Under the pieces are notes generated by a model that had not been told where the DNA came from, searched no databases, and worked only from the letters and a program-made list of their open reading frames with translations. Shown here one piece after another: positions 389-23,800 of a stretch of DNA of 40,255 nucleotides; the stretch's first letter is position 1; each line of letters begins with the position of its first letter. Position numbers and translations under genes: made by a program. Source of the DNA: a virus; IMG/VR virus record IMGVR_UViG_3300027708_000034, positions 82,332-122,586 of that record. One strand, given 5' to 3'.

Positions 389-790
389 TTAACTGCAACT
401 TAACCCTTGCAACTCGTCTAATGTACTAGCAGTATTTACTAGATCAGTGATGGCACGTAATCTATTTTTTTCTGCTACGACGGTGGTGGTATCTGCGCCA
501 GTTTCCAAAGCTCGCTGGAATAAGATATCTTGTGCTGCCAACAGTGGAGTTCTTTCTGCACGTAGTCTAGTTCTAGTTAATTCTTGTGCCCGTGCAAAGT
601 TGACTGCGACTGTGCCGTCGACTAGTTCCCAGGCGTCAAACCAATAATCGCTCACTGTAATATCATCAGTATCTATGATGATAGAATGTTCAGGCGTGTC
701 TTTGGCCTTGACATAGTCTATATCTAGTTCTGGATTTGGAGCAACAATAGTGACTCCGCCTTTATTGTTTGTATATACGATTGTTTTCAT
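389..790 (-). CDS. Putative tail-fibre assembly/chaperone-like protein, copy 1
   Basis: This is a 133-residue protein encoded directly after the 955-residue fibre gene. Its ATG overlaps the fibre stop codon as TAATG, so translation is probably coupled. The C-terminal part (about residue 50 on) contains FDAWELVDGTVAVNFARAQ and an Arg-rich helix with ERTPLLAAQDILFQRALETG and EKNRLRAITDL. This helical pattern resembles small fibre-assembly proteins encoded after tail-fibre genes (R-x-R-N-x-L-L ... LRDIT type); the family assignment is by pattern only. A paralogue lies at 5494-5898, also directly behind a fibre gene. The two share nearly identical C-terminal sequence while the first ~50 residues differ, which suggests the N-terminus is matched to the partner fibre. 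It could instead be a minor virion component. Confidence 0.7.
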   Translation of the reverse strand: MKTIVYTNNKGGVTIVAPNPELDIDYVKAKDTPEHSIIIDTDDITVSDYWFDAWELVDGTVAVNFARAQELTRTRLRAERTPLLAAQDILFQRALETGADTTTVVAEKNRLRAITDLVNTASTLDELQGLSCS

Positions 791-3660: not shown

Positions 3661-5457
3661 TTATAACTCCGCACTTATATATGCTGTTCCGCCGTCAATT
3701 ACGCTGCCCGAAGTAAGTAATGCTCTTTTAACGCTGGAACGCACTGCGGCACCTGCTGAACCAGATATTGTAGGTATTATTCGTTTTTCTAAATAATTTA
3801 TCATATCCCACCATCCATTGCTATCGTACTGTGCGCCTTTTGTCAACGTATATATTTTCGCTGTTTCATAATACCTCTGACACAAGGCCAGCTCTGTAGT
3901 AATAGGTCTGCGTTCAAAGGGGGTTGCCACTGTGCCTGGTTCCAGTTGAACCGCACCTATCTGCCAAGTACCAGATATTTGCGCGCCCACTGAGAACACA
4001 ATTTCAATACCAGTTGTGGCAGCAGCGGGTATGATAATATTAGTAGAATATCGTGTGAGCGTACTGGATACTGTGAATGTACCAGTGGCAATTTGTGTTC
4101 GAGTAGGCGATGCTAGTGTACCAAATGTATCCGCAGTATTGGCATAGTATGCTGTCCAAGTCACTGTAGTAAGTAAACTGTTAGCAAGATATGCACTCAA
4201 TGTCACAGTAGTGCCATTAAGTTCGTAACAGTTAACCGCTTCAATTCTCTGACCAAACCCTATAGCAGTTGTACTGGCAGCACCAGTGAACTGATATAGA
4301 TACTGTAGTGCGCCAGAACCTGCTACTTGTTGCCCAGTCACGTTGGCACCAGTTGAGTAGGCATACCAGCGATCCACAGTATAGGCTAGGGCGGCGGCTG
4401 CTGTAATGGTCTGTGACGAACCCGAGTTGCGTTGATCTGTAGTCATGGCCCCATTAATAATCCTATTGTGCATGCCAAGACTATTGGCCGTAATAAACTG
4501 TGTGCTATCTGGCAGTGTAACTGGTCCTATGGATACTGGTGTTTGCTGTGCTGAGTAAATTGATAGTCCAACACCTCCCACATTGGTTACAGTAAAACTA
4601 CTTGTGCTGGCATCCACGACAGGAACGGTTTGGCAGGTCAGTAATGAGGTATTTGTTATAGCAGTCAGTGGTGCTGAGGGTACTGTAAATGCTGCGGTGT
4701 AAACTGCTGTACCCCTAACTATACGTAAATTGGAGATAAAACCAGTATATCTTGTATTTTGTATACTGCCTATATCAACTGTATATCCCGACGGTCCCTG
4801 CGGGGTTCCAGATTTTGCCACAGAAAATGCTTGTATTCCATTAATATACCCTTTTAATGTTGTACTAGAGTTTGTGTAAACCATTGCAATATGATTCCAC
4901 GAATTTAATGGCACGGTTGATGAACTGGTGGCAAAATTTGAACTACCGTTATAGTAAAAGAAAACTAAATTTCCTGAAGAATTTGTTCCAAAAGACCAGT
5001 AGTTAGTGCTGCCGACAGGATCACCATATGCTATTTGTAAAGGGCCCGTCCCACCTGCAGATGCATTTACTGTATTGTAAACCCACATTTCAATTGTATA
5101 ATCAGTATCCCACCACTGTACTGTTGATATATTATATGGAACCGTTAAATATTGTCCGCTTCCGTTGAACGAGTTAGCATACACATTGGTACTCAGATAG
5201 GTCACTGCGTTGGCCACTGTGGGGCCGGTGATGTCCAACCAGTAAAAACCCACGCCGTCTGTGGTGTATCGATAGATATCATCAGTGGCAGAATCATACC
5301 AAATATCGCCTACTTTGGGATTCGAGGGTGCAGTAGCACTGGTGGTGGAAGTTACTGTGGCAACCCTGGTCCAAGTACCGGATGTGGAATTATACACATA
5401 GGTGATACCATTCAGTGTAGTGGTCTGTCCATTTAAAGGTGATACAGGAAAAGCCAT
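3661..5457 (-). CDS. Tail fibre / receptor-binding protein with LamG-like lectin domain (598 aa)
   Basis: The N-terminal cap (NGQTTTLNGITYVYNSTSG, then W) and a GDIWYDSATDDIYRYTTDG module (residues ~45-80) are shared with neighbouring fibres, but the GALQV repeats are absent. Residues ~97-270 form a concanavalin A/LamG-like domain: SFNGSGQYLTVPYN, then YTIEMWVYN, SWNHIAMVYTNSS, GYINGIQ and GFISNLRIVRGTAVY are its usual landmarks. The C-terminal half starts near residue 331 with HNRIINGAM...DQRN and includes QLEPGTVATPFERRPITTEL near 504. Both are common in phage receptor-binding tips with carbohydrate-binding jelly rolls. AAGGA sits 8-12 bp before the ATG, a good ribosome binding site. Its place between two long fibres suggests a short side fibre or spike on the same baseplate complex. 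Confidence 0.83.
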   Translation of the reverse strand: MAFPVSPLNGQTTTLNGITYVYNSTSGTWTRVATVTSTTSATAPSNPKVGDIWYDSATDDIYRYTTDGVGFYWLDITGPTVANAVTYLSTNVYANSFNGSGQYLTVPYNISTVQWWDTDYTIEMWVYNTVNASAGGTGPLQIAYGDPVGSTNYWSFGTNSSGNLVFFYYNGSSNFATSSSTVPLNSWNHIAMVYTNSSTTLKGYINGIQAFSVAKSGTPQGPSGYTVDIGSIQNTRYTGFISNLRIVRGTAVYTAAFTVPSAPLTAITNTSLLTCQTVPVVDASTSSFTVTNVGGVGLSIYSAQQTPVSIGPVTLPDSTQFITANSLGMHNRIINGAMTTDQRNSGSSQTITAAAALAYTVDRWYAYSTGANVTGQQVAGSGALQYLYQFTGAASTTAIGFGQRIEAVNCYELNGTTVTLSAYLANSLLTTVTWTAYYANTADTFGTLASPTRTQIATGTFTVSSTLTRYSTNIIIPAAATTGIEIVFSVGAQISGTWQIGAVQLEPGTVATPFERRPITTELALCQRYYETAKIYTLTKGAQYDSNGWWDMINYLEKRIIPTISGSAGAAVRSSVKRALLTSGSVIDGGTAYISAEL

Positions 5458-5493: not shown

Positions 5494-5898
5494 TTAAACA
5501 CAGGTCAAACCCCGTAACTCGTCTAATGTACTAGCAGTATTTACTAGATCAGTGATGGTACGTAATCTATTTTTTTCTGCCACGATTGTGGTAGTATCCG
5601 CTGATGTTTCCAAGGCTCGCTGGAACAAGATATCTTGCGCCGCCAATAAAGGAGTTCTTTCCGCACGTAGTCTAGTTCTAGTTAATTCTTGTGCCCGTGC
5701 AAAATTGACTGCGACTGTGCCGTCGACTAGTTCCCAGGCGTCAACAAATTCATCAGATGGGGGCAGGGATTCGGTATCAACTATGATTGCTCCGGGTGGA
5801 CAATCTCTTGCTAAAACTGTTTCGATAGGCAACTCGCCAGATGGTGAACATATGAATACATTCGTACCGTTGGGGTTTTTATAGATTATTGCTTTCAT
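5494..5898 (-). CDS. Putative tail-fibre assembly/chaperone-like protein, copy 2
   Basis: This 134-residue paralogue of the protein at 389-790 is encoded 3 bp after the stop of the 1642-residue fibre. The segment from FVDAWELVDGTVAVNFARAQ to the C-terminus is almost the same as in copy 1, with differences such as TSADTTTIVAE and LRGLTCV. The first ~50 residues (MKAIIYKNPNGTNVFICSPS...) are only distantly similar. Co-location of each copy with a long repeat fibre supports a fibre-specific assembly role, although no biochemical motif proves it. A GGAT element 8-11 bp upstream of the ATG is the only candidate ribosome binding site. A 36-bp gap then separates it from the 598-residue fibre gene. 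Confidence 0.7.
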   Translation of the reverse strand: MKAIIYKNPNGTNVFICSPSGELPIETVLARDCPPGAIIVDTESLPPSDEFVDAWELVDGTVAVNFARAQELTRTRLRAERTPLLAAQDILFQRALETSADTTTIVAEKNRLRTITDLVNTASTLDELRGLTCV

Positions 5899-5901
5899 GT
5901 T

Positions 5902-8900
5902 TTATCCAAAAAATGCAACATACGTTATTGCATCTCGCAAGGCAGCGCCAGCCGCGTTATACGTCTGCATTTGACAATTTGCCGCAGCGGGGACTGAGAT
6001 GGCAACTACTGTATTACCAAAGCCCGTGTTGCCGGTCATTACGTAATTTGCGTTTGGCAGAGCATTAGTAAATGTAATTGTAAAATTTCCGGTAGATTGC
6101 TTAGTCACACTGGACACATTAAAACTACCACTAATCGTCGGCGAGGCTATGGTGCCATCAAACTTTACCCATGCCTTGGCAAACTGCCCAATTTCTACTC
6201 CTGCACTGTCTTTTATCAAAGGTGCTGTTGATGTTGATGCAGATAGTATCTGTGCCACACCATTGTACGTATTAGTACCGCTGACATAGCCAATGCCGGT
6301 ACCAAGATAATAACCTTGGAAAAAACAACCTGGATTTAGAGCAGCCACTGTTGCTGCTGCTCCGCAGTACGCAGAAATATCTATGTAATCTGTGGTTCCG
6401 TTGCAGTAAATTACCGCACTAACCGAACTCTGTACAGCATTACTACTGGCTGTAGCAAAATTATCGCTACCCGATTTATAGCCGCCACCATTTTTACGAA
6501 TTATGATCAATAATTCTTGATTGGTCACTGGAGCTCTTATACCTGCGCTAATCTGATAGTATCCGGCAACAGTAGGTGTAAATGTCGAAGTGGCAGTAGA
6601 ATACATACCAACGGTGTTATCAAATTCAACTTGAGTATAATTAATTTTGGTAGTACCCGCACCTAAACTTTGTGTAACAGCAGTACCATATGAAAAAGTA
6701 GGTTGAGTATATGATGTCACTGCTGTACCGGCTCCAGTAGGGCCAGTGATGTCTAACCAAACACTTGTAGCGCCATCTGTGGTATAACGATAGATATCGT
6801 CAGTTGCAGTATTATACCAAATGTCGCCCACTGTGGGATTAGTCGGTGCTGTGCTGGTACTACTAGTACGTATACCTCCACCCGTGACTGAACCACCAAT
6901 ATTGACGTTACCGCCTACGCCAACACCACCTATTACCTGTAGAGCTCCGGTATTGGTTGAAGTAGAACTAGCAGTGCTAGAAATAATGAATGTAGCTGTC
7001 GTACCAGTACTGGCCGCAGATGCCGCGGCATACAATCCAATACTAGCAGTGGTGATGATCTGTGCGCCGGCAATGAATGAAGCAGTTCCTATATAAACAG
7101 CGCCACCGATGCCAACTCCGCCAGAGACAATTAAAGCACCTGTATTGGTCGATGTAGAAGTGGCAGTACTGATTATCGTGGCAGTGGATGCTGATATGAA
7201 AGCAGCACCAGTTATGTAACCAGTTCCAGTAGCGCCACTTGTTACGAAACTGGTAGCAGTTATCACGCCCCCTACATATATGCCACCGCCAACTCCTACA
7301 CCGCCCACTACCTGCAAGGCACCTGAATTAGTACTGGTTGTACTGGCAGTACTGGAAATAATGAATGTAGCTGTCGTACCAGTACTGGATGAGGAGGATG
7401 CTGCGGCATAGAGACCAATAGTGGCAGTGGTGATGATCTGAGCGCCGGCAATGAATGAAGCAGTTCCTATATAAACAGCGCCACCAATGCCAACTCCGCC
7501 TGCTATAGTCAACGCACCGGTAGTAGTACCTGTGCTGGCTGTGGTATTGAATGTTCTGATGATGTCATCAGTTTGTATTATCGTAGTAGTGACTGTGGTG
7601 AACTGAATCGTCAATTGATTGGCAGTTATATTTCCACCCACATACAAATCGCCACCGATGCCAACTCCACCTGTTACAACCAATGCACCTGTAGTAGTCG
7701 ATGTGCTAGTTGCTGTATCATATACTATTACCTGTGTGGCTGTGGAAAATATAGCATCACCACTGCCATCTGGGTCTATTAATAAATTGGCATTTGAACC
7801 TACTGGATATGTCGTGATACTTGTGAATGCTGCTTGAGGTGCTGTTATTTGCCCGCCAATACCTACTCCACCACGTACTTGTAGAGCACCTGTCGTAGTA
7901 CTGGTGCTGCTGGTAGTGTTTAATATTACAAATGTGCTGGTGGTACCTGTCGTAATACTGCCAGATGTCAATGCTGAATAACCACCGGCGTAAATCGTTC
8001 CACTGACATATAAATCTTTGCCTATGCCGGCGCCACCTGACACTTGCAAGGCTCCGGAATTGGTTGACGTGCTGTTAGTGGTATTTGATATCACAAATGT
8101 ACTGGTAGTACCAGTGGTCACAACTCCGTAAGCAATACCACTGTTAACATCAACGATCGTGCCGCTGATGTATAAATTACCGCCAATACCCACGCCACCT
8201 GTGACTACTAGTGCGCCAGAGTTAGTGCTGGTGCTATTAGTAGTTCCACTGACTAAAATTGTGTTTGTGGCCGTTAAATTCAGTGTGGTAATATAGGCCA
8301 CTCCGCTGATGCTGCCTAAACCGCCATCTGTTATAAAACTGCTGGCATAAACAGCTCCACCAACTCCCAGCCCCCCACTTACAATCACAGCACCACTTTG
8401 CGTACTAGTTGATGTGGCAGTGTTGGCAACTATCACAGGTGTTTTGAATGTACCACTGCTAAATGTTAGATTGGGCGCACTCAAGTTGCCAGAAACAGTG
8501 ACATTCTGAGCACAGATAGAACTGACGCCGGTGATAGATCCAGAAGATGCCGTATTTCCTACAGTTACGACACCACCAACACTCAAATTCTCTCCAATAC
8601 CAACACCGCCTGTAACTACCAAAGCACCAGTTATTGTGGATGTTGAACTGCTTGTGTTAGTGATGAAAACTTGCGACTGGAATGTGCCGCTGTTATATGA
8701 TAGATTTGGTGCTGTTAAACTTCCAGTAACATTGATGTTGGTCACTACAATATTACTAACACCAGTGATGGATCCAAACGATGCTGTACTGCCAACTGTT
8801 ACGTTGCCGCCGATATTAACGCATCCGACGATGCCTGCACCACCACGTACTTGTAGAGCACCTGTGTTGGTACTGGTACTGCTGGTGGTGTTTAATATTA

Positions 8901-10830
8901 CAAATGTGCTGGTGGTGCCTGTACTATTGGATCCAAGAGCTTGTCCGCCAGGACCATATATATTTCCACCGACCCATAAGTCTCCACCGATACCGGCTCC
9001 GCCCGTTACCTGTAGAGCACCTGTGTTAGTGCTAGTGCTACTAGATGTATTTGATATTACGAATGTGCTGGTTGTGCCAGTTGTACCAGCACCAATGATC
9101 CTACCTGTTTGATCAACTATATTGCCGCCAACATATAAGTTGCCACCAATACCTACTCCACCACGTACCTGTAGCGCACCCGTGTTAGTACTGGTGCTGC
9201 TGGTGGTGTTTAATATTATAAATGTGCTGGTAGTGCCTGTGCTATTAGACCCAATTGCCTGACCACCCGGACCATATATATTTCCACCAACCCATAAGTC
9301 TCCGACGATGCCTGCACCGCCACGTACTTGTAGAGCACCTGTGTTGGTACTGGTGCTGCTGGTAGTGTTTAATATTACAAACGTGCTAGTGGTGCCTGTG
9401 GTGGCTATTCCAATGCTACCAGTATAACCAGTAACACCCTGTGTGCCAGTGGAGCCAGTATATCCCTGCGGTCCTTGTGCGCCCACTGATCCCCAATAAC
9501 CATTGGGTCCTTGACTACCTGTATAACCTGAGCTACCAGAATAGCCAATAGTACCCGTACTACCAGTATATCCAGTAGCACCCGAGCTGCCAAGATAACC
9601 GCCACTACCTGTAAATCCAAGAATACCCTGTGGACCAGTCGGACCTTGACTACCAGTATAACCCAACGGTCCCTGTGGACCCACGATAACCCCGACATCA
9701 TTAAAACCGCCAACTCCGCCCACGCCAGTATAGGTCCACAGGTGTCCGTTATAGGTGACGATAATACCGTCACCTATCGTAGGTGAGGGATCTACGGAGG
9801 CAAAGGCCACTGTAGTAGCAGTACTGGTACTACCAACGATTCGAACACTTGTACCATTATTACCCTGACTACCTGTATAACCTGTGGCGCCTATGCTGCC
9901 CCAATATCCATTAGATCCACAATATCCTCTAACGCCTTGGCTACCATCAAATCCCCTACTACCGGCAAACCCAATAGTTCCTGTACTACCAGTATATCCA
10001 GTAGCACCCGAGCTGCCAAGATAGCCACCGCTACCTGTAAATCCCGTTGGTCCTTGTGGACCAGCAACATTGCTAGCTGACCCAGTATATCCGCCTGGTC
10101 CTTGAGGACCTACTGAACCTGAATACCCATATCCTACACTCTGCCCGTTTACAAGCACAGCAGTAGCACTAAATGTGCCACCGACATTTAAATTGCCCTG
10201 TATTCCAACTCCGCCCCCAACAGTCAATGCTCCTGTATATATGTTACTGGATGCAGTAGTTCCGCTAATGTTTAAATTCACGAAACTAGCTGTAGTAGCT
10301 GATAAGGTGTTTGCTGTTATCGTTCTACCAATATTTAAATCGCCGCCAACACCCAAACCGCCTGTTATTACCACAGCACCTGTAGTAGTTGATGTACTGG
10401 CTGTAGTATTAGCAAATGAAACGATATTGGTAGTGGTTGCACCCCTGCTAGTAACTGACTGTAGTGTACTGGTATTCCAAATAGTGATAGCACCAGTACT
10501 ACCACTTATTGCTGTGTCAGTACCTGCGGTAATTGATGTTTGATTGGCAAACTGGTTAACTGTGGCAGTGGTCAGTATCTGTGCGCCAGCGATGTAAGAA
10601 GCTGTTCCGATATAAACTGCACCGCCGATGCCAACTCCACCTCGAACTTGCAATGCTCCGGTATTTGTGCTGGTTGCACTGGTAAAATTGGTAACGGTGA
10701 ATGTACTAGATGTGCCATTCAACGGCTGCGCAACCCTGGTCCATGAGTTATCTGCACTGGAATACTGGTAGGTTATTCCGTCTACTACTAAGATAGTGCC
10801 GTTGGTCGATGTGGTGAACGTAGTTGCCAT
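5902..10830 (-). CDS. Large mosaic tail fibre with collagen-like segment and C1q-like tip (1642 aa)
   Basis: The N-terminal cap (residues 1-35; DGITYQYSSADNSWTRVA) is followed by three GALxVxGG repeats. Two collagen-like Gly-X-Y segments follow (about 233-327 and 380-473; GPQGPxGYTGS type). A ~50-residue insert separates them, containing GTSVRIVG and NGHLWTYTG, a spacer domain also found in the other collagen-bearing genes here. Fourteen more GALxVxGGxGIG repeats follow, then a GDIWYNTATDDIYRYTTDG module (~1335), a C1q-like jelly roll (~1420-1510; AGYYQISAGI, LIIIRKNG), the GTGIGYVSGTNTYNGVAQIL connector and a last beta domain (WVKFDGTIASP, then YVMTGNTGFGN). It is a paralogue of the 955-residue fibre with a longer shaft. 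A TAAATA box lies 5 bp before the ATG and there is no Shine-Dalgarno sequence, so a leaderless late transcript is possible. Confidence 0.86.
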   Translation of the reverse strand: MATTFTTSTNGTILVVDGITYQYSSADNSWTRVAQPLNGTSSTFTVTNFTSATSTNTGALQVRGGVGIGGAVYIGTASYIAGAQILTTATVNQFANQTSITAGTDTAISGSTGAITIWNTSTLQSVTSRGATTTNIVSFANTTASTSTTTGAVVITGGLGVGGDLNIGRTITANTLSATTASFVNLNISGTTASSNIYTGALTVGGGVGIQGNLNVGGTFSATAVLVNGQSVGYGYSGSVGPQGPGGYTGSASNVAGPQGPTGFTGSGGYLGSSGATGYTGSTGTIGFAGSRGFDGSQGVRGYCGSNGYWGSIGATGYTGSQGNNGTSVRIVGSTSTATTVAFASVDPSPTIGDGIIVTYNGHLWTYTGVGGVGGFNDVGVIVGPQGPLGYTGSQGPTGPQGILGFTGSGGYLGSSGATGYTGSTGTIGYSGSSGYTGSQGPNGYWGSVGAQGPQGYTGSTGTQGVTGYTGSIGIATTGTTSTFVILNTTSSTSTNTGALQVRGGAGIVGDLWVGGNIYGPGGQAIGSNSTGTTSTFIILNTTSSTSTNTGALQVRGGVGIGGNLYVGGNIVDQTGRIIGAGTTGTTSTFVISNTSSSTSTNTGALQVTGGAGIGGDLWVGGNIYGPGGQALGSNSTGTTSTFVILNTTSSTSTNTGALQVRGGAGIVGCVNIGGNVTVGSTASFGSITGVSNIVVTNINVTGSLTAPNLSYNSGTFQSQVFITNTSSSTSTITGALVVTGGVGIGENLSVGGVVTVGNTASSGSITGVSSICAQNVTVSGNLSAPNLTFSSGTFKTPVIVANTATSTSTQSGAVIVSGGLGVGGAVYASSFITDGGLGSISGVAYITTLNLTATNTILVSGTTNSTSTNSGALVVTGGVGIGGNLYISGTIVDVNSGIAYGVVTTGTTSTFVISNTTNSTSTNSGALQVSGGAGIGKDLYVSGTIYAGGYSALTSGSITTGTTSTFVILNTTSSTSTTTGALQVRGGVGIGGQITAPQAAFTSITTYPVGSNANLLIDPDGSGDAIFSTATQVIVYDTATSTSTTTGALVVTGGVGIGGDLYVGGNITANQLTIQFTTVTTTIIQTDDIIRTFNTTASTGTTTGALTIAGGVGIGGAVYIGTASFIAGAQIITTATIGLYAAASSSSSTGTTATFIISSTASTTSTNSGALQVVGGVGVGGGIYVGGVITATSFVTSGATGTGYITGAAFISASTATIISTATSTSTNTGALIVSGGVGIGGAVYIGTASFIAGAQIITTASIGLYAAASAASTGTTATFIISSTASSTSTNTGALQVIGGVGVGGNVNIGGSVTGGGIRTSSTSTAPTNPTVGDIWYNTATDDIYRYTTDGATSVWLDITGPTGAGTAVTSYTQPTFSYGTAVTQSLGAGTTKINYTQVEFDNTVGMYSTATSTFTPTVAGYYQISAGIRAPVTNQELLIIIRKNGGGYKSGSDNFATASSNAVQSSVSAVIYCNGTTDYIDISAYCGAAATVAALNPGCFFQGYYLGTGIGYVSGTNTYNGVAQILSASTSTAPLIKDSAGVEIGQFAKAWVKFDGTIASPTISGSFNVSSVTKQSTGNFTITFTNALPNANYVMTGNTGFGNTVVAISVPAAANCQMQTYNAAGAALRDAITYVAFFG

Positions 10831-10843: not shown

Positions 10844-13800
10844 TTAGAAAATAGTTGGGTATTGCACGATTGGACCAGTATAATCTAACCAGAAATTAAT
10901 CACACCATTGGCAGTATATCTATACAATCTATCATTAGTTGTATTGTACCACATGTCGCCCACAGTGGGATCAGCTGGGGAATTACTGCCAGTGGTTGAT
11001 CTAACACCACCTGCTACTATGCTGGTAGCATTAATTTGTCCACCAACTCCCAGGCCGCCTGTTATTACCACAGCACCTGTGGTAGTTGATGTGCTGGCTG
11101 TAGTATTGACAAAGGAAATTATATTGGTAGTAGTTGCTCCTCGACCAGTTATACTTTGTAAAGTACTGGTATTGTTGATAGTGATCGAACCAGTTGTAGC
11201 ACTTAGTGTTATATCTGTACCGCTGTTTAGATTAGTTACACCCAAATTGGTAATCACTATGCTGCCAGTAGCAGTGTTTACACCAATATATGTGCTACCC
11301 GTTGCAGTGGTAACACCGGTATTACTGACAGTTATATTACCGCTGCTGGTACTTACGCTAATGCCAACACCAGCGATAATTGAAGTTTGATTTGCAAATT
11401 GGTTAACAGTGGCAGTGGTTAATACTACATTACCGCTACTATATATCGTGCTGCCCACATACAAGTTTCCGCCAATACCGGCTCCACCTGCAACTTGTAA
11501 AGCACCAGAGTTGGTGCTGGTTGCATTTGTGATATTGTAAGTGGAAATAATATCATCAGTGGTAACTTGTGTAGTTGTTACAGTTGTTAATTGAATAGTT
11601 AATTTTTGTGCAACTATCTCACCACCAACATACAAGTTTCCGCCAATGCCCACACCGCCTGCAACTTGTAATGCTCCGCTATTAGTTGAACTTGCCGCAG
11701 TTGCATTTAGAATTAATATCTTATTGGTCGTACTATTACCACGGCCGGTGACAGTTTCCAGTGTACTGGTATTCCATACTGTTACAATACCATTGTATGA
11801 ATATACCGCAGTGTCAGTACCGGCATTCACAGTGGTTATGCCGCCGCCGCTGCTGATCAATGTGGCGGTGGTCAATATCTGTGCGCCACCGATGTATGAC
11901 GTTTGTCCAATATATAGAGAGCCGCCAATACCTACGCCACCGGTTACAACCAATGCTCCAGTATTTGTGCTGGTTGATTCAGATTGATCACTGATATCAG
12001 TAATTCCGCTAATACTAGCAGTGCCATTTACTTGCAGATTACTATTGATTGTAGTTAATACGCCTGCAGGATCAAGTGTAAGATCACCGGTTTGAGTAAC
12101 TAAGCTACCGCCACTTAATACTAAACTTCCAACGCTAACGCTAGTTGGTAATATTACTGCATTGTTAGATCCGTCGGTTACTGTAAGTTGTCCTAGATTT
12201 CCTAGATTGACTTGTGCATTGCCAAAACTTACATCTCCGGTGTGTTGATTAACTAAGAAACTTTCTCCTACACGGAAATCACCACCTTGATCAACTGTTT
12301 GATAATATACCTTACCACCATTTATCTGTATAACTTCGTCGGCCTGCACAACCAAACTGGTATCATCTGATGAATCTTTACCTGCGCCAATATGACTTAC
12401 GTTAAAAGCAATAAGTTTAATATCGGTACCGGTTCCGTCGGCAGTAACACCACTATTACCAAATATAGCGGCAGATCCTAAACTACGTACCTCAGCACCA
12501 AACTGATGATAGTCAGCAAGGTCAATACTGGTAGCAGTAGCATAGTTTGTACCAGTAGAATAAATTACTTGTAATCTTCCAGGCTCATCAGTGAATACAG
12601 TTGACCCTGAAATTCCATTGGCATGTAACATTAATACAGTATATTCATCTACGACTAATGCCTGCGTCGGTGCTGTAAAAGTTGTTAGGTATTTTGCAAT
12701 ACCTTTACTAACTCTTATATCATCAATATAGCCAGTTAAACCTTCTGTGCTCGTGTAATTTGCGCCAATGTAAACTGCGGCTTGTCCATAGTTGTTAGTA
12801 TCAGCATAAGTAGTTGCTTGTACTGTACCGTTGATAAACAATCTTGTAACATTAGAAGATTTACTAACAGCAATGTGCGTCCAGGTATTTAGAGATACGG
12901 CTGTGCCTGTAATTCGCGTGGTATTGCCAGCAATAAATCTTACTTGGCCAGGGCCTGCAAAACCTATTTGAAAGTTTACGCCGCTGATTGGATGATAATC
13001 AAAAAGAGTGTGAACTGCCCCGGTTACTGATCTGTAAGCCCACATTTCAACGGTCCAGTCGCCTGTACCAAATGCAAAATCCGCATGTGAAGCAATTGAT
13101 AATGCATCACCAACGCCGTCAAACTTTGCACTGCCGGTGCCATATTTTTTAACAGAGGTATCAATACTTACATCACCTAACGCACTTACAATTTTAGCAG
13201 TTCTAGTAGATACAGTATCAAATCCCCATGCAGCCCCATTGATATACACATACGAACCATTAACACTGGCAATAGTTCCGCTGGCCAACGTGGTTCCGCC
13301 GGAAGTTTTATAAAATAATGTATCACCTACGGATAGTGTTCCACTAACACCACCTAGTTTTAATTTTGTTTTACCAGCACCAGTATAACCAGTTGAACTG
13401 GTTACAGCATGTACGGCCTTGTCTGCAAAGTAGAAAAATGTGTTGATAACTTCTGCACGGGCACCATTGGTCATGTATAGACCTGTGGCATTTGGCACAA
13501 TGAACGTTGCTTCGTTGAACATTATTGATGCTTGTGTGCTGGTAGTTGCTACTCGTGCTCCATCAATTTTTACGCCGCCGCCCGCGTCGTGTGCGTCAAA
13601 TCCGTATGGATCACTTGCACTGGTTATGCTACCTTTGGTAATAACACTGAAACGTTCAATATAAGGACTCTTGGTAGTAGTTACTGCACCGGGTGCAAAC
13701 TCAAACGCATAACCCGGTTTAAAGAATCCACCTACAGTGAAATCACTGATCAGTGCATCACCCATGAATAAGAACGCGGTCGCTGTATTAGTAGCAGTGG

Positions 13801-16800
13801 TTGGATATATTATTACTTCACGAAGTCCGGCTCCACGAACATTTACACCTTTTGCTATGGTTAGTGGAAATTCTTCATAGTATGTACCAGGTTGTATAAA
13901 AACTGTATCACCATCATCAGCATAACCAAGTATATATTTTATAGTACGAGCGGGTGCTGACGGATGGCCATTTTTGGTATAGTCATTAACACCTATTACA
14001 GGATCAACATACCAAATATGTTGATTTTGATTTAGTAGATTAATACCACTGGCTACCAACCCGCCGGCGATATTAATATTGCCGCCGATACCCACTCCAC
14101 CAGTAATAACTAATGCGCCGGTAACTGTAGATGTGGAACTTGATGTATTGGTAATTCTAATAGCATCTGGGGTAGTTGCACCATATTGAGTTACACCTGC
14201 TAATGTACTGGTGCTTAAACTTTGAACAGTGGACGTTGTAACAACTTTTGCGCCGCGTTGATATAAATCACCACCAACATATAAGTTGCCACCTATCCCA
14301 GCCCCGCCCACAACCTGTAAAGCACCGCTGTTTGTACCTGCACTATCTGTAATATTGGTTATCAATATTGCGTTAGTGGTGCTGTTACCGCGACCAGTTA
14401 CAGTTTGTAGAGTACTGGTGTTCCATATAGTAATTGATGTACCGCTATTACTGCTTACTGCTGTGTCGGTGCCTGCAAAAATCGCAGTTTGATTCGCAAA
14501 CTGATTGACGCTGGCAGTGGTTAATACTTGCTGGCCATTTTGATATAACGATCCACCGATATATAAATCACCACCAATGCCAACGCCGCCCACAACTTGT
14601 AACGCTCCAGTATTTGTTGAACTGGCAGCAGTTGTATTCGTAATTAATATAGTGTTGGTGGTGCTATTACCTCTACTAGTGACAGTTTCTAGTGTACTGG
14701 TATTCCATACTGTTACAATACCATTGTATGAATATACCGCAGTATCAGTGCCAGCGTTTACAGTGGTTATACCACCACCACTGCTGATCAATGTGGCGGT
14801 GGTCAGTATTTGTGCGCCACCGATGTATGACGGTTGTCCGATGTATAAGGACCCGCCTATGCCAACTCCTCCAGTAACTACTAGTGCGCCTGTATTAGTG
14901 CTGGTGCTACTAGATGTATTTGATATTATGAATGTACTGGTAGTACCAGTAGTTTGGAAGCCGTAAGCAATACCGCTGGTAGAATCAATTATTTTTCCAG
15001 CAACATATAAATCTTTAGAAATACCGACACCACCCCGTACCTGCAAGGCACCTGATGTGGCCCGGGTAGAGTTGGTGGTATTCAATATTACAAATGTGCT
15101 GGTAGTACCGGTATTTTGGAAACCGTAAGCAATACCGCTGACGACATCAACTATATTTCCACGGATATATAAATTGCCGCCTATACCAATCCCGCCGGTT
15201 ATTGTCAATGCACCTGTTGTAGTGGAAGTTGACTCAGTGATATTAGTAATACTAATTGCTTGATCGGTGCTTGACCCCCTGTTGGTAACACTTTGTAGTG
15301 TGCTGGTGTTCCAAATTGTAATTGAGCCAATACTTGCTGAGACTGCTGTATCAGTGCCCGCAGTAACTGAAGTTACCGCAGATGAACTAATAGAAGCAGT
15401 GGTGATTACCAACGCACCTTTTACAGTTAGATTACCTCCAACATAAGCATCTCCACCAATGCCAACGCCGCCTACCACAATCAACGCACCAGTATCGGTA
15501 CTGGTGCTGGCTGTAGAATTAACGATTGCGTAAGTTCCGGTGCCTAAATTATTGGCTATACCTGCTATATTAGCATAGGTACTAGATGATGCAAATATGG
15601 CAATATTAACCAGTGTTCCTGTGTTAAATGATAGAGCAAAGCCAGATGTTGTGGCAAAATTACTAGTGGACGCACTGACTGCAACATTAACCAACGTGCC
15701 TGTGTTAAATGATAATGCAAATCCTGAGGTAGATGCAAATCCTGCATTAGATGATATTAAGGATGCAGTATTAGCAAAGGTTACTACCTGACTATTATTA
15801 CTATATATTGTTCCACCAACATACATGTCTAGCTCAACACCAACTCCGCCTGCTACAGTCAATGCTCCAGTGGTAGACGATGTTGAATTAACTGAGGATA
15901 GTACTGATACTGCACCCGGATTGGTTAGATTACCATCTGTGCCAAATACCCAGGTGTTGAATATGGCTCCAGCATTATTAGGACTTGTCTGTATCGAAAC
16001 ATTATTATCCCAAGCATATAGCTGGTTGTTGCTACTAAAATTGGATATTACTGCGGCTTGTCCAGCACTTGGGTATATGTTAACACCGTTGGATACTGAT
16101 GTGATCAGTCCACCGTCTGGAAGTGTTAATACACCATCTGTACCAAAAGTCCAATGATTGTTTTCAGCACCAATTCCTACATTACCTGTACTCTTGATGC
16201 TGTCGTATCTAGGAGGTAATGTCCCACTCACATAAGAAACTGTGCTGGTAACATCTGTTGAATAAACTGGTCCAGGAGAAAAGAAAGTTTGAACATCAAA
16301 TACGATGTCATTAGCAGGACTTGTTCCGCCAGGGAATGTGGTTCCAGGAATGACTAGATTAACACTTCCTGGGCCATATCCGCCGGCACCCTGAGCCACA
16401 CTCATGTTGGTTATAGTGTCATCTACTTCTAGGGTAAATGTTAAATGAGTGGCTCCATAAGTTACCGGTATATTTGTAAATGTAGTTGGTAGGTAACTCC
16501 AAATAACCGGAGCCAGTGTCAATGACCCGTTGATGTTGGCATCACTGCCAACAAATAACTTTTCACCGATTGCAGCACCGCCCCTAACTTGTAGAGCACC
16601 TGTAGTGGTTGATGTTGATGCATCAGTGTTTAATATCAATACAGCATTAGTGGTGCTATTACCTCTGTTGGTGATAGTTTGTAATGTGCTAGTATTCCAT
16701 ATAGTTATTGACCCAACACTTCCATAGACTGCTGTGTCAGTACCTGCTATGATCGAAGTTACCGCAGATGAACTAATAGAAGCAGTAGTGACTACTAAGG

Positions 16801-19800
16801 CCCCACTTACTTTCAAATCGCCGCCAACATATACGTCACCGCCGATACCAACTCCGCCAGCAACAACTAACGCACCCGTAGTAGTCGATGTGCTAGAGGA
16901 GGAGTTAAATGTGGTAATTATATCATCAGTTTCAACTATAGTGGTAGTTATAGTGGTATATTCTATCGTTAACTTCTGGGCAACGATTTCACCACCAACA
17001 TACAAGTTACCACCAATACCAACTCCACCATATACCTGCAGGGCACCTGTATCAGTGCTTGTACTATTAATAGTGTTTACTATCGTAAATGTACCTGTGC
17101 CAAGTGCCAACGCAACTCCCGCTGTTTCAGCATATGTACTCGATGATGCATAAATTGCATTGGTAACTATAGTGCCAGTATCGAAACTTAAGGCATATCC
17201 AGAAGTTGTGGCAAAGTTAGATGTCGTAGCACTTATTGCATTTGTTACTACGGTACCAGTATCGAAACTTAGAGCATATCCAGAAGTTGTGGCAAAGTTA
17301 GATGTTGTAGCACTTATTGCATTTGTTACTACGGTACCAGTATCGAAACTTAGAGCATATCCAGAGGTTGTGGCATATTCAGCATACGCTACCAATAAGG
17401 AACTGGTATTGGCAAATGTGAGAACTTGACTGCTGCTGCTATATATTACACCACCGACATATAAATCACCACCAATGCCAACTCCACCTGCTACAGTTAA
17501 CGCACCCGAGTCCGTTGATGTAGAACTAGTACTATTAATGACCGAAATACTATTGCTGGTGGTGTTTCCTCTATCAGTGACTGATTGTAGATTACTGGTA
17601 TTCCAAATTGTAATGTTGCCAACAGTTCCATAGACTGCTGTGTCAGTGCCTGCTGTGATCGAAGTTACCGCAGATGAACCAATAGAAGCGGTAGTGACTA
17701 CCAAGGAACCTTTTATTGTTAGGTCTCCGCCAACATACAGGTCCTTACCAATACCCACACCACCTGTGACTATCACTGCTCCAGACTCAGTCGAAGTAGA
17801 ATTAGTGGATGTAGTAATCCTTAAGATTTGATTAATTACCGAAGTACCCAATACACTGGATAATCCGCTCTGTGTTGTAAGGACTTCGGCGTTGTTAAGA
17901 TACGCGGTACCAGCAACATGTAAATCTTGACCAATGTATACAGTACCGCCTATGCCTACTCCGCCAATTACCTGCAATGCTCCACTATCAGTCGAGCTGG
18001 CATTAAAAAACTCAAGGGGGGCTATTACTTTTATCGCCCCTACATCTAAAAACCCGCTGATCGTAGATACGTGATCATATCCAGAAATTTGTAAATTATC
18101 GCCCTTGATGGTGCCAATAACATTTAAATTCTCACCAATCCCCACGCCGCCGGCAACTGTCAGTGCCCCGGTAAATGGATCTGTTGATGTTGATGTACTC
18201 GATAATGTTAGTGTATTTTGATATACTGGTGACTCTGTCCCGTTGCTTACTAGAACATATCCGGGCAGTGATGTGGTTACAAATCCAGTTTGAGTAGAAC
18301 TAATTTGATATAATAATGTACCGGGAGACCCGCCAGTAACAGCAGCAGCATAGTTTGCATTATCCACTGAACCTGATATGGTTCCGCGGAACACACCGTA
18401 GATATTAGTGGCTGTAAAGTCGCCGCCAACAGTTATATTACCATTGACATTTAAATTTTCCCCGATGCCAACCCCGCCCACTACCACTAGAGCCCCATTA
18501 TTACTTGAGGTTGAGCCGATATTATTATTGACTGTTAATACATCATCTGCTTGAAACGGTCCATGTATTATAGAAGTAGCGGTTCCTCTTGTGATAATAT
18601 GATCGAAGGATCCCAAACCATCAACATACACATCGCCACCGATGCCAACTCCGCCGATTACTTGCAATGCTCCGGTATTCGTTGATGTAGATGTTTCCGA
18701 ATTTGTTATTCTAGTCTTGTTACTTAAAACTCCGCCTGTAAAAGTTCCCGTGTTTACAAGATAACCGTTAGCGTAAACATTACCACTAGAATATATGTTT
18801 CCACCAACAGACATGCCGCCTGCTATTTGTAAGGCACCCGTGTTAGCTCCGGACGAATCTGCAATAGAATTGATCATTACAGACCCAACACTTAAATTAC
18901 CAGTTATAGTTGAAAATGTAGATATGTTGAGAGATACTGCATTTATGCTTCCACCAGCAAAAATATTTTCTCCAACTCCCAAGCCTCCATATATCCTTAA
19001 GGCGCCTGTATCAGTAGATGTTGACGACCCATAATTAAGTATAGTTAATACATTAGTGGTAGTAGCACCTCTGTTGGTTACTGACTGTAGTGTGCTGATA
19101 TCACTGACAGTAACATCCCCAGTAGATGATGATACAGATATATCATCACCAGCAAGAATCTTGCTGACGAAATTAGGACTTCCATCTTTTGATGTTAGTA
19201 CCTGAGATCCATTGCTGAATAGATTAGCAACATGAAGATCACCGCGTATGCCCACACCACCATAAATTTGTAAGGCCCCATCATTAATGCTAGTTGATGA
19301 ACTATCATTGTATATTATTAATGGCCCGTATATTTTAGATTGTGTGGTAGTATTAAACGAATAAAAACTATTGACATATGCAACACCCCCAAGATATAAG
19401 TCTTTACCTATACCTGCGCCACCACTAACAACTAATGCTCCAGAATTGGTAGATTCAGAGTTGGTAGTATTGAAAGTTTTGATTATATCATCTGTTTGGA
19501 TGATAGTGGTTGTTATCGTGGTATATTGTATGTCTAACTCTTGCGCGACAATTTTACCACCAACATATAAATCACCACCAATGCCAGCACCACCGGTTAC
19601 AACCAAGGCTCCTGAATTATTTGATGTACTGGCACTAGCATTATTAATTAATATAGTATTAGTAGTAGAACTTCCACGATCAGTTACTGTTTGTAGTGTA
19701 CTGGTGTTCCAAATAGTAACAGCACCGGTGCTAGTGCTTACTGCTGTGTCAGTACCTGCCGTGATCGAAGTTTGATTTGCATATTGATTAACACTGGCAG

Positions 19801-20089
19801 TGGTTAGGATCTCGTATCCACCGATAGTACTCGTTTGGCTGATGAAAACACCGCCACCAACATACAGATCTTTTCCAATACCCACACCACCAACAACTTT
19901 TATTGCACCCGAGTCAGTAGAGGTAGAATTAGTCGAAGTGGTTACAACTATACTGACCGCAGTAAGGGTATTAAGAGCAGTATTACCGCTGTCGATTTTC
20001 CAACCCTGGCCCGTCCATACCCAGGTCCTGACGCCTACAGTGTATACTGTACCTGTACTGGGATTACTGGGGAAGCCTAAAGTTGCCAT
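10844..20089 (-). CDS. Giant repeat tail fibre with beta-helix and nested LamG module (3081 aa)
   Basis: This is one open frame of 9.2 kb. About 27 copies of the GALxVxGGxGIGxxLYVGG repeat alternate with about ten WNTSTLQxVTxRGNSTTN units and three xxAQKLTIxYTTITTT units, implying a very long trimeric shaft. Residues ~2023-2600 differ. They look like a pectin-lyase-type right-handed beta-helix (WYVDPVIGVNDYTKNG, VFIQPGTYYEEFPLTI, GVNVRGAG). A LamG/ConA-like domain is nested inside it (~2316-2480; SAKFDGVGDALSIASHADFA, WTVEMWAYRS, YIDDIRVSKG). A GGKVYYQTVDQGGDFRVG motif closes it. The protein ends just after a GDMWYNTTNDRLYRYTANG module and lacks the C1q tip of its paralogues. A TTFGTDG-type region lies near residues 1250-1400. 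It may combine shaft, lectin and depolymerase-like functions; enzymatic activity is not shown. Confidence 0.87.
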   Translation of the reverse strand: MATLGFPSNPSTGTVYTVGVRTWVWTGQGWKIDSGNTALNTLTAVSIVVTTSTNSTSTDSGAIKVVGGVGIGKDLYVGGGVFISQTSTIGGYEILTTASVNQYANQTSITAGTDTAVSTSTGAVTIWNTSTLQTVTDRGSSTTNTILINNASASTSNNSGALVVTGGAGIGGDLYVGGKIVAQELDIQYTTITTTIIQTDDIIKTFNTTNSESTNSGALVVSGGAGIGKDLYLGGVAYVNSFYSFNTTTQSKIYGPLIIYNDSSSTSINDGALQIYGGVGIRGDLHVANLFSNGSQVLTSKDGSPNFVSKILAGDDISVSSSTGDVTVSDISTLQSVTNRGATTTNVLTILNYGSSTSTDTGALRIYGGLGVGENIFAGGSINAVSLNISTFSTITGNLSVGSVMINSIADSSGANTGALQIAGGMSVGGNIYSSGNVYANGYLVNTGTFTGGVLSNKTRITNSETSTSTNTGALQVIGGVGIGGDVYVDGLGSFDHIITRGTATSIIHGPFQADDVLTVNNNIGSTSSNNGALVVVGGVGIGENLNVNGNITVGGDFTATNIYGVFRGTISGSVDNANYAAAVTGGSPGTLLYQISSTQTGFVTTSLPGYVLVSNGTESPVYQNTLTLSSTSTSTDPFTGALTVAGGVGIGENLNVIGTIKGDNLQISGYDHVSTISGFLDVGAIKVIAPLEFFNASSTDSGALQVIGGVGIGGTVYIGQDLHVAGTAYLNNAEVLTTQSGLSSVLGTSVINQILRITTSTNSTSTESGAVIVTGGVGIGKDLYVGGDLTIKGSLVVTTASIGSSAVTSITAGTDTAVYGTVGNITIWNTSNLQSVTDRGNTTSNSISVINSTSSTSTDSGALTVAGGVGIGGDLYVGGVIYSSSSQVLTFANTSSLLVAYAEYATTSGYALSFDTGTVVTNAISATTSNFATTSGYALSFDTGTVVTNAISATTSNFATTSGYALSFDTGTIVTNAIYASSSTYAETAGVALALGTGTFTIVNTINSTSTDTGALQVYGGVGIGGNLYVGGEIVAQKLTIEYTTITTTIVETDDIITTFNSSSSTSTTTGALVVAGGVGIGGDVYVGGDLKVSGALVVTTASISSSAVTSIIAGTDTAVYGSVGSITIWNTSTLQTITNRGNSTTNAVLILNTDASTSTTTGALQVRGGAAIGEKLFVGSDANINGSLTLAPVIWSYLPTTFTNIPVTYGATHLTFTLEVDDTITNMSVAQGAGGYGPGSVNLVIPGTTFPGGTSPANDIVFDVQTFFSPGPVYSTDVTSTVSYVSGTLPPRYDSIKSTGNVGIGAENNHWTFGTDGVLTLPDGGLITSVSNGVNIYPSAGQAAVISNFSSNNQLYAWDNNVSIQTSPNNAGAIFNTWVFGTDGNLTNPGAVSVLSSVNSTSSTTGALTVAGGVGVELDMYVGGTIYSNNSQVVTFANTASLISSNAGFASTSGFALSFNTGTLVNVAVSASTSNFATTSGFALSFNTGTLVNIAIFASSSTYANIAGIANNLGTGTYAIVNSTASTSTDTGALIVVGGVGIGGDAYVGGNLTVKGALVITTASISSSAVTSVTAGTDTAVSASIGSITIWNTSTLQSVTNRGSSTDQAISITNITESTSTTTGALTITGGIGIGGNLYIRGNIVDVVSGIAYGFQNTGTTSTFVILNTTNSTRATSGALQVRGGVGISKDLYVAGKIIDSTSGIAYGFQTTGTTSTFIISNTSSSTSTNTGALVVTGGVGIGGSLYIGQPSYIGGAQILTTATLISSGGGITTVNAGTDTAVYSYNGIVTVWNTSTLETVTSRGNSTTNTILITNTTAASSTNTGALQVVGGVGIGGDLYIGGSLYQNGQQVLTTASVNQFANQTAIFAGTDTAVSSNSGTSITIWNTSTLQTVTGRGNSTTNAILITNITDSAGTNSGALQVVGGAGIGGNLYVGGDLYQRGAKVVTTSTVQSLSTSTLAGVTQYGATTPDAIRITNTSSSTSTVTGALVITGGVGIGGNINIAGGLVASGINLLNQNQHIWYVDPVIGVNDYTKNGHPSAPARTIKYILGYADDGDTVFIQPGTYYEEFPLTIAKGVNVRGAGLREVIIYPTTATNTATAFLFMGDALISDFTVGGFFKPGYAFEFAPGAVTTTKSPYIERFSVITKGSITSASDPYGFDAHDAGGGVKIDGARVATTSTQASIMFNEATFIVPNATGLYMTNGARAEVINTFFYFADKAVHAVTSSTGYTGAGKTKLKLGGVSGTLSVGDTLFYKTSGGTTLASGTIASVNGSYVYINGAAWGFDTVSTRTAKIVSALGDVSIDTSVKKYGTGSAKFDGVGDALSIASHADFAFGTGDWTVEMWAYRSVTGAVHTLFDYHPISGVNFQIGFAGPGQVRFIAGNTTRITGTAVSLNTWTHIAVSKSSNVTRLFINGTVQATTYADTNNYGQAAVYIGANYTSTEGLTGYIDDIRVSKGIAKYLTTFTAPTQALVVDEYTVLMLHANGISGSTVFTDEPGRLQVIYSTGTNYATATSIDLADYHQFGAEVRSLGSAAIFGNSGVTADGTGTDIKLIAFNVSHIGAGKDSSDDTSLVVQADEVIQINGGKVYYQTVDQGGDFRVGESFLVNQHTGDVSFGNAQVNLGNLGQLTVTDGSNNAVILPTSVSVGSLVLSGGSLVTQTGDLTLDPAGVLTTINSNLQVNGTASISGITDISDQSESTSTNTGALVVTGGVGIGGSLYIGQTSYIGGAQILTTATLISSGGGITTVNAGTDTAVYSYNGIVTVWNTSTLETVTGRGNSTTNKILILNATAASSTNSGALQVAGGVGIGGNLYVGGEIVAQKLTIQLTTVTTTQVTTDDIISTYNITNATSTNSGALQVAGGAGIGGNLYVGSTIYSSGNVVLTTATVNQFANQTSIIAGVGISVSTSSGNITVSNTGVTTATGSTYIGVNTATGSIVITNLGVTNLNSGTDITLSATTGSITINNTSTLQSITGRGATTTNIISFVNTTASTSTTTGAVVITGGLGVGGQINATSIVAGGVRSTTGSNSPADPTVGDMWYNTTNDRLYRYTANGVINFWLDYTGPIVQYPTIF
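11640..11985. repeat. Direct repeat, distal copy, flanking the beta-helix/LamG cassette
   Basis: This copy lies inside the giant fibre gene. It pairs with 14571-14916; the stretch beginning at 11761 is identical to that beginning at 14692 for about 52 bases and highly similar for ~145. The offset is 2931 bp, exactly 977 codons. It encodes GALxV repeat, IGGAQILTTATLISSGGGI and WNTSTLETVT units. Confidence 0.8.
14571..14916. repeat. Direct repeat, proximal copy, flanking the beta-helix/LamG cassette
   Basis: This is the second copy of the repeat at 11640-11985. The segment between the two copies carries the whole beta-helix with nested LamG domain. Differences between copies are mostly third-position changes in the core, so this is a recent or gene-converted pair. 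Confidence 0.8.
17161..17375. repeat. 81-bp tandem repeat in the giant fibre gene
   Basis: Two full 81-bp units (17161-17241 and 17242-17322) and most of a third encode FATTSGYALSFDTGTVVTNA followed by ISATTSN. Units two and three are nearly identical in DNA. A more diverged pair of the same unit lies at about 15600-15760. The 27-residue period suggests a coiled or beta-prism segment that can change length by slippage. Confidence 0.85.
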
Positions 20090-20838: not shown

Positions 20839-23800
20839 TTATGCTCCTATCGCTAATATATACGGTGTCATTACCGCAAACAAGCTCTTTGTAAATGTTC
20901 TTCCAGAAATAGTCCCTAGGTTATTATTTATCGTTAATTCGTTACCAATTTGGAAGTTACCTTTTTGGTCCGTTCCCGTAAAATAAACCTTGCCGCCGTT
21001 GACTGAAACTGCTTGATTTGCAGTGATTGGCACACCACCTAGATATGGAAGGGCTGCATCTATATTAGTTCCTGCGCCAATCCATTCAAAGTTGTGTGCA
21101 GAGCTTTGTATTTGACTGAATGTCTGGAACGTGATTGTTGTATTGTTTCCGGTGATGTTAGCTGAATTTTCGGCTAGTACTATCACGCAGGTAAATGCTT
21201 CATCTACAACCTTTGCGATAATCCTTAATAGGCCAGCAGCAGTATTACCTTCCACTAAGGTAGCTGATGTGGTAGCCGTCGTATACTGCGGTGTATCATA
21301 TTGCTGCGGCATAGCTATCGAAGTATTTGTGATGATTTTTGGCAGTATTGTAGATATGAAGTAGTATGCGGCGGCGCTGGCCGGTTGTTCACTTGAGGAA
21401 ATTCTCAAGGTCGCACCGTCGTAATATGCTTCACCTGCCACTACAGTTTGACTATTGCCCCCATACATTAAATCATAAGTTACTGCATCAACAACATAGC
21501 CCACATCCCGTTTACATAGGCTTTCACTATATACTAAATTACCAAAAGTTAAATTAATATAAGCGATAGTCTCTGCTTGTATAAATGTTCTATTGGCCAG
21601 CAATAGGTTGTAGGCATTGATCGTAGACGTGGTAGAACTAAAAGTTTGTCCAATAGGAGTTTTTGTATAATCTAGCAAAGGACCATTAACAATGATATTG
21701 GTAATAGTAAATACTGACTGGTCAATCAATGCTACTTCAGCTAGAGTGGCTGTATTTGAGCTGGTTGTTTGAGTTACTGATGTCTGACAAGGATACGCAA
21801 TTTGCTGTCCTAAAATAACCTTCTCTGATATAGTTCTCATGTAATCATACGCAGCCAAAGTTTGTGGTATTTGATTTGCTATGACTGTAGCATAACCATT
21901 GTATCTGTAATAATATACTCCAGACATAACACTTTGTCTATTGCCGCCATGCAGCAGATCGAATGCCACACTTTGAACCATATAAGTAACATCTCTATAA
22001 CAGGTACTAGTATTATAATTAAATGTTGGATAATTTGCATTAATCCAAATCAATGTTTGATCTGCAAGATTATACTGATTTGATATCAGACTATTGTAAG
22101 CATCTACTATATATGAACTGGTAGATATATTACCATTAGGAACAATGCTATCGGTTACATTGGCGGTTCCGGTGCTCAGTATAGATAATATCTTGTTAAA
22201 ATTCGCATTAATTATTGATGTAGCCGTTGAGCTAGTGGTCAGTGTGACAGCTAGGCTCTTGACATAGTTAATCGCAGCGGTTGTAGTTGTAATTTCATTA
22301 AGTATGACATCTATGTAGCCTACATTCTGACTCCAGTATTGCAATCCAGCAAAAAGGCTTTGACTAGTTCCCCCGTAGGCTATATCAAAGGCCAAGCTGT
22401 CTACAATCAATCCAGTGTCTCGATAGCAGGTAGCAGTATTATAATTCCTAACTACAAATTTATTATTGATATAGCCAACAACTTCAGCCTGTATAAAAGC
22501 TCTATTATCCAGCAATATTTTAAAAGAATTCACTAGATATGTGGATGTACCTGCATTCAATGGGATCGGTATCTTAGGTGCTGCTATGCTAGGTCCGTAG
22601 GTGAGTATGTTGGTAATAGTGGTTACTATATGATCTATTATCCTAGTTTGAACTGTTGTGGCTGTTCCGGTATTGATCACTGGTGTTACTGACCGTTGAT
22701 ATGTTGGCCCAGTTACTTTACCTAGGATCAAATCCTTTGACAGCTTGTTTAAGAATTTATAAGCAGCAATAGTTTGAGGGATTTCATTATTAATCACAGT
22801 CGCCGTCGTATCATAACCGTAATAGTACACACCTGCCTGAATACTTTGACGATTTCCACTATGTAGTAGATCAAAGGCAACACTTTGTAGCATATAACCC
22901 ACATCTCTATAACAGGTAGCAGTGTTATATGAACTAAAAGTTGAATTGATATAACTTATAGTAGCATCAGCGATGGCTGTTTGACTTGATATTAATGTGT
23001 TATATGCTGATACGATTCCAGGGTCCGTCGATGCATACGAATTAGGAATAATAATATCTGTTACACCTATTGGCCCGTTTACGATTATATTTGTAAGAGT
23101 ATTGAATAAACTCGTTACCCTATTGGTAGCTGTTGAACTTATTCCAGAAATCGCAGTCAATGCCTGTGTCTCAATATAAGAAATAGCACTGGTTAGTGTG
23201 CTAATTTGATCTACTATCTGACCTGTATATCCAACATCCTGACTCCAGTATTGTAGTCCTGCAAAAGTACTCTGACTGTAGTTGCCGTATAGTAGATCAA
23301 ATGCTATGGCATCAACGATTAATCCAGTATCTCTATAACAAGAAGTGGTGTTATATTGGAAATTACCAATATAGGCAGCAGTTTCTTCTTTAATAAATTC
23401 CTTGTTGGCCTGTAATAATTCAACAGCAGCTATGGTAGCTGATGTAGCACCAGTTGGTGGGTTGAATTGGTATGCTGGTGAGACTCCTACACCATTTTGA
23501 AAAATGTTGATTATGATATCAAATAAGTCGGATATTCTTATGTACGGAGCCGAACCGGGAGTTAGCAGTATCAACGTCTGAGTTTTCAAATAAATCATTG
23601 CTGCTGCGGTCTGTGTTTTTTGCAAATCGATGACTGGAGAGCTAACTGCTCGATAGTAGCTGTTACCAGCTAATACAGTTTGATAATTGCTAGGCAAAAC
23701 CATATCATAACAGACAGACTTTAAAATAGTTCCAACATCCCTGCTGCATTTAAACTGATTAAAATCGAATCCGGGATATGTTTTTAGTATATAGTTAATG

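Follow-up and report, generated by a model that had tools for sequence, protein, structure and literature searches.

The window (the whole stretch of viral DNA that was analysed, 40,255 nucleotides long) contains a gene for a fibre protein built mainly of shaft units of the TSTxTGALxVxGGVGIGGxLYVGG type. Its features are listed below in order from the N to the C terminus of the protein; L009 denotes a related phage and L040 a third phage with which the window was compared.

10844–20089, minus strand: fibre gene, encoding 3081 aa, with ~26 shaft units and two non-shaft inserts
15871–16591, minus strand: second non-shaft insert (~aa 1175–1405), without a Pfam or PHROG match
14553–14905, minus strand: repeat copy X (the N-terminal copy), the shaft unit at aa 1734
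14691–14743, minus strand: 53-nt exact core in X, the longest exact run of the pair
12024–14389, minus strand: exchange cassette, with low synonymous divergence to L009 (LamG excepted) and to L040 (12430–12024)
14066–14389, minus strand: two shaft units travelling with the module (aa 1922 and aa 1991)
13208–14062, minus strand: opening part of the module, of beta-helix type by DUF1565 match (5e-5) and fold prediction
12704–13117, minus strand: nested LamG/concanavalin A-like domain (PF13385, 1.8e-17), replaced relative to L009
12005–12703, minus strand: last part of the module, beta-rich, with a FRVGxSFLVNQxTGNVSF motif
11622–11974, minus strand: repeat copy X' (the C-terminal copy), the shaft unit at aa 2711
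11760–11812, minus strand: 53-nt exact core in X', the longest exact run of the pair

Taken unit by unit, the shaft has a different best relative from place to place and is thus a patchwork. Exact direct repeats of at least 22 nt number 84 in the window, several of them longer than the 53-nt core of X and X'. A megablast search of the fibre against named phages returned zero matches. The second non-shaft insert, flanked by a 74% repeat pair (15266–15522 and 16652–16908, 1386 bp apart), returned nothing beyond one short match when used as a query; with it, the beta-helix/LamG module is not the only non-repeat globular module of the fibre, as a first-pass annotation of this DNA had held.

The module itself, residues 2010–2695, is beta-rich and lies between X and X', where the same annotation had placed it; the LamG_3 and DUF1565 profiles and the fold model agree with that assignment. 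The LamG_3 profile (PF13385) scored 64.3 bits against a curated cut-off of 27.6, and the module as a whole belongs to the PHROG 13163 family, annotated as a baseplate wedge subunit (6.2e-179, profile positions 254–926 of 976). An AlphaFold2 model of the module, at a pLDDT of 84, found its closest fold matches in proteins of cyanophage ACG-2014f (TM 0.76–0.79), and the main fold of the module is likely to be a beta-helix. The top PDB fold match was the CBA120 tailspike TSP2 (PDB 6w4q, 5w6p), yet with a TM of only 0.2 and 10% identity. LamG is an insert within the beta-helix, because it is cleanly absent from three homologues (L035, L037 and L039) and because a fold is predicted even for the LamG-less L035 module (pLDDT 83, pTM 0.79). 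No enzyme family matched the module above cut-off, and no relatives of it were found in bacterial and archaeal genomes. Fold matches across the LamG range were set aside as functional evidence, many of them being generic jelly-roll proteins.

The proteins of Synechococcus phage ACG-2014f (Kyanoviridae), termed 'baseplate wedge initiator' and likewise of PHROG 13163, have ~41–43% protein identity over 90%. They carry the same module, with LamG inside the beta-helix part and the same predicted fold; the protein that hosts it is ~1000 aa long in ACG-2014f, in contrast to the 3081-aa repeat shaft of the window. Elsewhere the module occurs in proteins of 979 to >4500 aa, at places that vary from close to the N terminus, through the middle, to close to the C terminus. 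At the same locus in eight related contigs that share conserved neighbour genes (two of which, L071 and L072, look like one phage), the fibres range from 1014 to 3193 aa and the module is missing in 7/8, occurring only in L009/L070. Related phages had been proposed as a source of the same shaft without the module, and L069 retains the C-terminal shaft but lacks the module; identity to this part is 60% across 412 columns and rises over the final 200. The fibre frame of L070 is broken near the N terminus (~4889–5214), which is either real or a sequencing error.

Between L009 and the window, DNA identity is high from 14389 to ~12140, reaching near 99% from 14389 to ~13500 as against ~60–70% in the shaft upstream; on both sides of the shared stretch the shaft is no more similar than any two shaft units. 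Synonymous divergence to L009 is 0.07 in the leading shaft units (14395–14066), 0.13 (14062–13208) and 0.28 (13207–13118) before LamG, 2.1 within LamG (13117–12704), and 0.58 (12703–12503), 0.15 (12502–12143) and 0.90 (12142–12005) after it. Two conserved upstream genes differ from those of L009 by 1.40 and 1.65, values at saturation. With low synonymous divergence (0.07–0.15) confined to the cassette, against 1.40–1.65 in these genes, the cassette moved between phages as a unit. The two leading shaft units (aa 1922 and aa 1991) moved with it: L009 is their sole close relative, with 100% and 99% protein identity, the next best relative standing at 45%. L040 has 12430–12024 in common with the window, at a synonymous divergence of 0.16, and changes into an unrelated domain directly after this segment.

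The edges of the cassette are abrupt (14389 and ~12140/12024). The crossover at 14389 falls inside a conserved WNTSTLQTVTxRGNSTTN tract of a shaft unit, a position that could be chance because in many shaft units this tract accounts for much of the length. Only two recent exchanges were found, one nearly complete (L009) and one partial (L040). An all-against-all comparison of the homologues gave no further recent ones, the other close pairs being alike along the whole gene and therefore read as products of vertical descent. The compared sequences are metagenome contigs, any single one of which could be a chimeric assembly, and short-read assembly near repeats calls for added caution; the separate contigs and the 7–15% synonymous change argue against a chimaera.

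The repeats X and X' that surround this cassette had been proposed as its boundaries. Their position was correctly described in the first-pass annotation: the two starts are exactly 2931 bp apart and in frame. The frame carries no evidential weight, since repeats within the coding sequence of a repeat protein necessarily keep the reading frame. The description 'near-identical' fits only the protein, with 95% identity over 117 aa by non-synonymous count: DNA identity is 84% over 300 nt (family D10, 11622–11921 and 14553–14852) or 82.4% over 353 nt by BLAST, with 62 differences in 351 nt. Non-synonymous divergence is 0.047 and synonymous divergence ~0.88, with many silent sites saturated, and the duplication is therefore old. 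The 53-nt core exceeds the length expected from evenly spread differences (p ~0.001, codon-column shuffling), which suggests a short local gene conversion between the copies. X and X' are an old duplicate of one shaft unit, in which selection keeps the protein alike and which short gene conversion has probably touched. The edges of the cassette lie in the stretch between the two copies, not at them.

It is a serious possibility, if somewhat short of probable, that X and X' are ordinary shaft units that selection on the fold, and now and then conversion, keeps alike, and that they flank the module by coincidence. By position alone, 27% of the 325 shaft-unit pairs in the fibre span the module; the protein is preserved while silent sites drift, and the second insert is likewise bracketed by related units. 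The pair is nevertheless the top repeat pair of the fibre by a wide score (358 bits, the runner-up 168), and only ~1% of unit pairs sit as close around the module.

An insertion scar, in which arrival of the cassette by unequal exchange of shaft units duplicated X on both sides and the copies diverged later, is a less likely account, although several observations fit it. The two units are by far each other's closest relatives (91% protein identity, against ≤61% for any other relative), X' begins only ~30 nt past the module end, and the IVAQ unit comes after X', as it does in the module-less L069 fibre. The left cassette edge, however, stops ~160 bp short of copy X, and the 0.88 between the copies is 6–12 times the divergence of the cassette from L009. 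X and X' are too diverged, relative to the cassettes (0.07–0.15), to date from the L009 exchange or to be its scar; an older first arrival could fit. The suggestion of an inserted receptor-binding module is itself supported by the module, which has moved between phages, varies in position among fibres of different length and is absent from this locus in 7/8 related contigs.

A built-in switch, in which recombination between X and X' would often drop 977 codons and give a mixed population with long and short fibres, is very unlikely, and programmed excision is unsupported. The arithmetic behind it is correct (3081 − 977 = 2104 aa), and the in-frame pair is the strongest in the fibre, has a 53-nt exact core and stands one cassette and a few shaft units apart, its patch of exact identity suggesting earlier contact between the copies. 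Many silent sites are saturated between the copies, however, whereas known switches have long repeats that are identical, and the pair is not conserved: in 0/25 homologous fibres is the module bracketed by a comparably strong repeat pair. No contig has the repeat core in another context, an exact search of other viral contigs for the 53 nt having found none in a set that may miss near relatives, and a deletion form lacking the module between X and X' was seen in no assembled contig. Many other repeat pairs in these genes could equally delete other segments. With the edges of the cassette lying between copies that are older than the exchange, an excisable element ending at these repeats is not supported. 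X and X' do offer some potential for in-frame loss, 53 exact nucleotides making a deletion possible in principle. A switch would matter more if true, and there is no sign of one.

The nested LamG domain has a different nearest relative from the rest of the cassette. The backbone of the module is nearest to L009 (93%), while LamG is nearest to L032, with 57% protein identity as against about 41–50% to L009. The replacement edges lie at ~13117 and ~12735. Synonymous divergence is 2.1 in LamG and 0.13 beside it, and LamG was replaced separately inside the recently exchanged cassette. A donor from the same phage was rejected, the other LamG domains there being only 27–34% alike. That the difference from L009 instead reflects fast adaptive change or diversity-generating hypermutation is highly improbable: LamG is in general less conserved than any other part of the module and a neighbouring gene has an Mtd_N domain, of a family known from phage with a diversity-generating retroelement, but the LamG silent sites are near saturation and accompanied by indels, and a reverse transcriptase (PF00078) was not found in the four, possibly incomplete, records searched.

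Exchange of an internal fibre module between phages by ordinary recombination, with the nested LamG domain lost, gained or replaced independently, is very probably the correct reading of the locus: host-recognition fibre mosaicism, probably assisted by the shaft repeats. The exchanged cassette comprises two shaft units and the beta-helix module with its nested LamG; repeated shaft DNA would help crossovers, and the beta-helix would act as a scaffold. LamG, to judge from its domain type only, may bind a surface glycan, and its replacement would then alter binding and host range. The fibre would represent a clear natural case in which an internal cassette moves between phages and a lectin domain nested in it is replaced separately. 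If shaft repeats guide the exchange, giant repeat fibres would be partly explained as recombination platforms, and LamG domains would be parts to test for host-surface binding. A broader proposal, that the shaft repeats are standing landing sites at which modules are inserted, lost or exchanged in frame while a lectin slot is exchanged alone, giving two-level combinatorial host recognition, is speculative and on present data rather improbable. No recombinase was detected in the 122-kb record of the phage, with RecA and RecT profiles included in the search; the record may be partial.

Receptor-binding parts move between phages, and adjacent conserved sequence has been proposed as an aid to their recombination (PMC10408124; PMC10579305; for T4 relatives, PMC2993671). 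Classical exchange of tailspikes and fibres as described there keeps a conserved N-terminal anchor and swaps the C-terminal part, whereas the cassette in the window is internal, begins in shaft DNA and holds a second, separately exchanged domain. Exchange of receptor-binding parts is already known; less usual is a cassette that lies inside the fibre and encloses a lectin exchanged independently of it. The window also resembles the host recognition cluster known from cyano- and pelagimyophages, a hypervariable region that contains concanavalin A, collagen and major-tropism-determinant domains and glycosyltransferases (PMC7029224): all four domain kinds are present. Variation in that cluster is at the level of genes, whereas the exchange in the window took place within one gene. 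Searches of the 122-kb record, which may be incomplete, for the sheath, Gp23, RecA and Terminase_6N families found none, the Gp23 search having lacked a positive control.

Several further features were seen among the neighbouring genes. The Mtd_N gene (ORF 20839–24912) has ~230 extra residues (aa 594–823, ~22444–23130, minus strand) relative to four relatives of ~1050 aa, and these residues appear to form another inserted module. A small gene of phrog_20196 occurs twice (389–790 and 5494–5898, minus strand, 5105 bp apart), each copy adjoining a fibre gene (790–3657 and 5902–10830, minus strand); the two fibre genes have long exact repeats in common (69 nt at 3389/9236), and the arrangement looks like a duplicated unit of fibre and small gene. 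Beside the fibre cluster lie a DNA/RNA non-specific endonuclease (PF01223; 35650–36465, minus strand) and a protein of 1129 aa that contains several glycosyltransferase domains (36505–39894, minus strand). Elsewhere in the same phage, three stretches of one protein (L097:15576–17729, minus strand; ~77.9–80.1 kb of the record) match LamG domains, and the phage therefore has several lectin-like proteins. A collagen-like gene (32313–34754, minus strand) holds an exact repeat of 88 nt, in copies 99 bp apart, that is longer than any other in the window, and is a likelier site of copy-number change than the 2931-bp pair.
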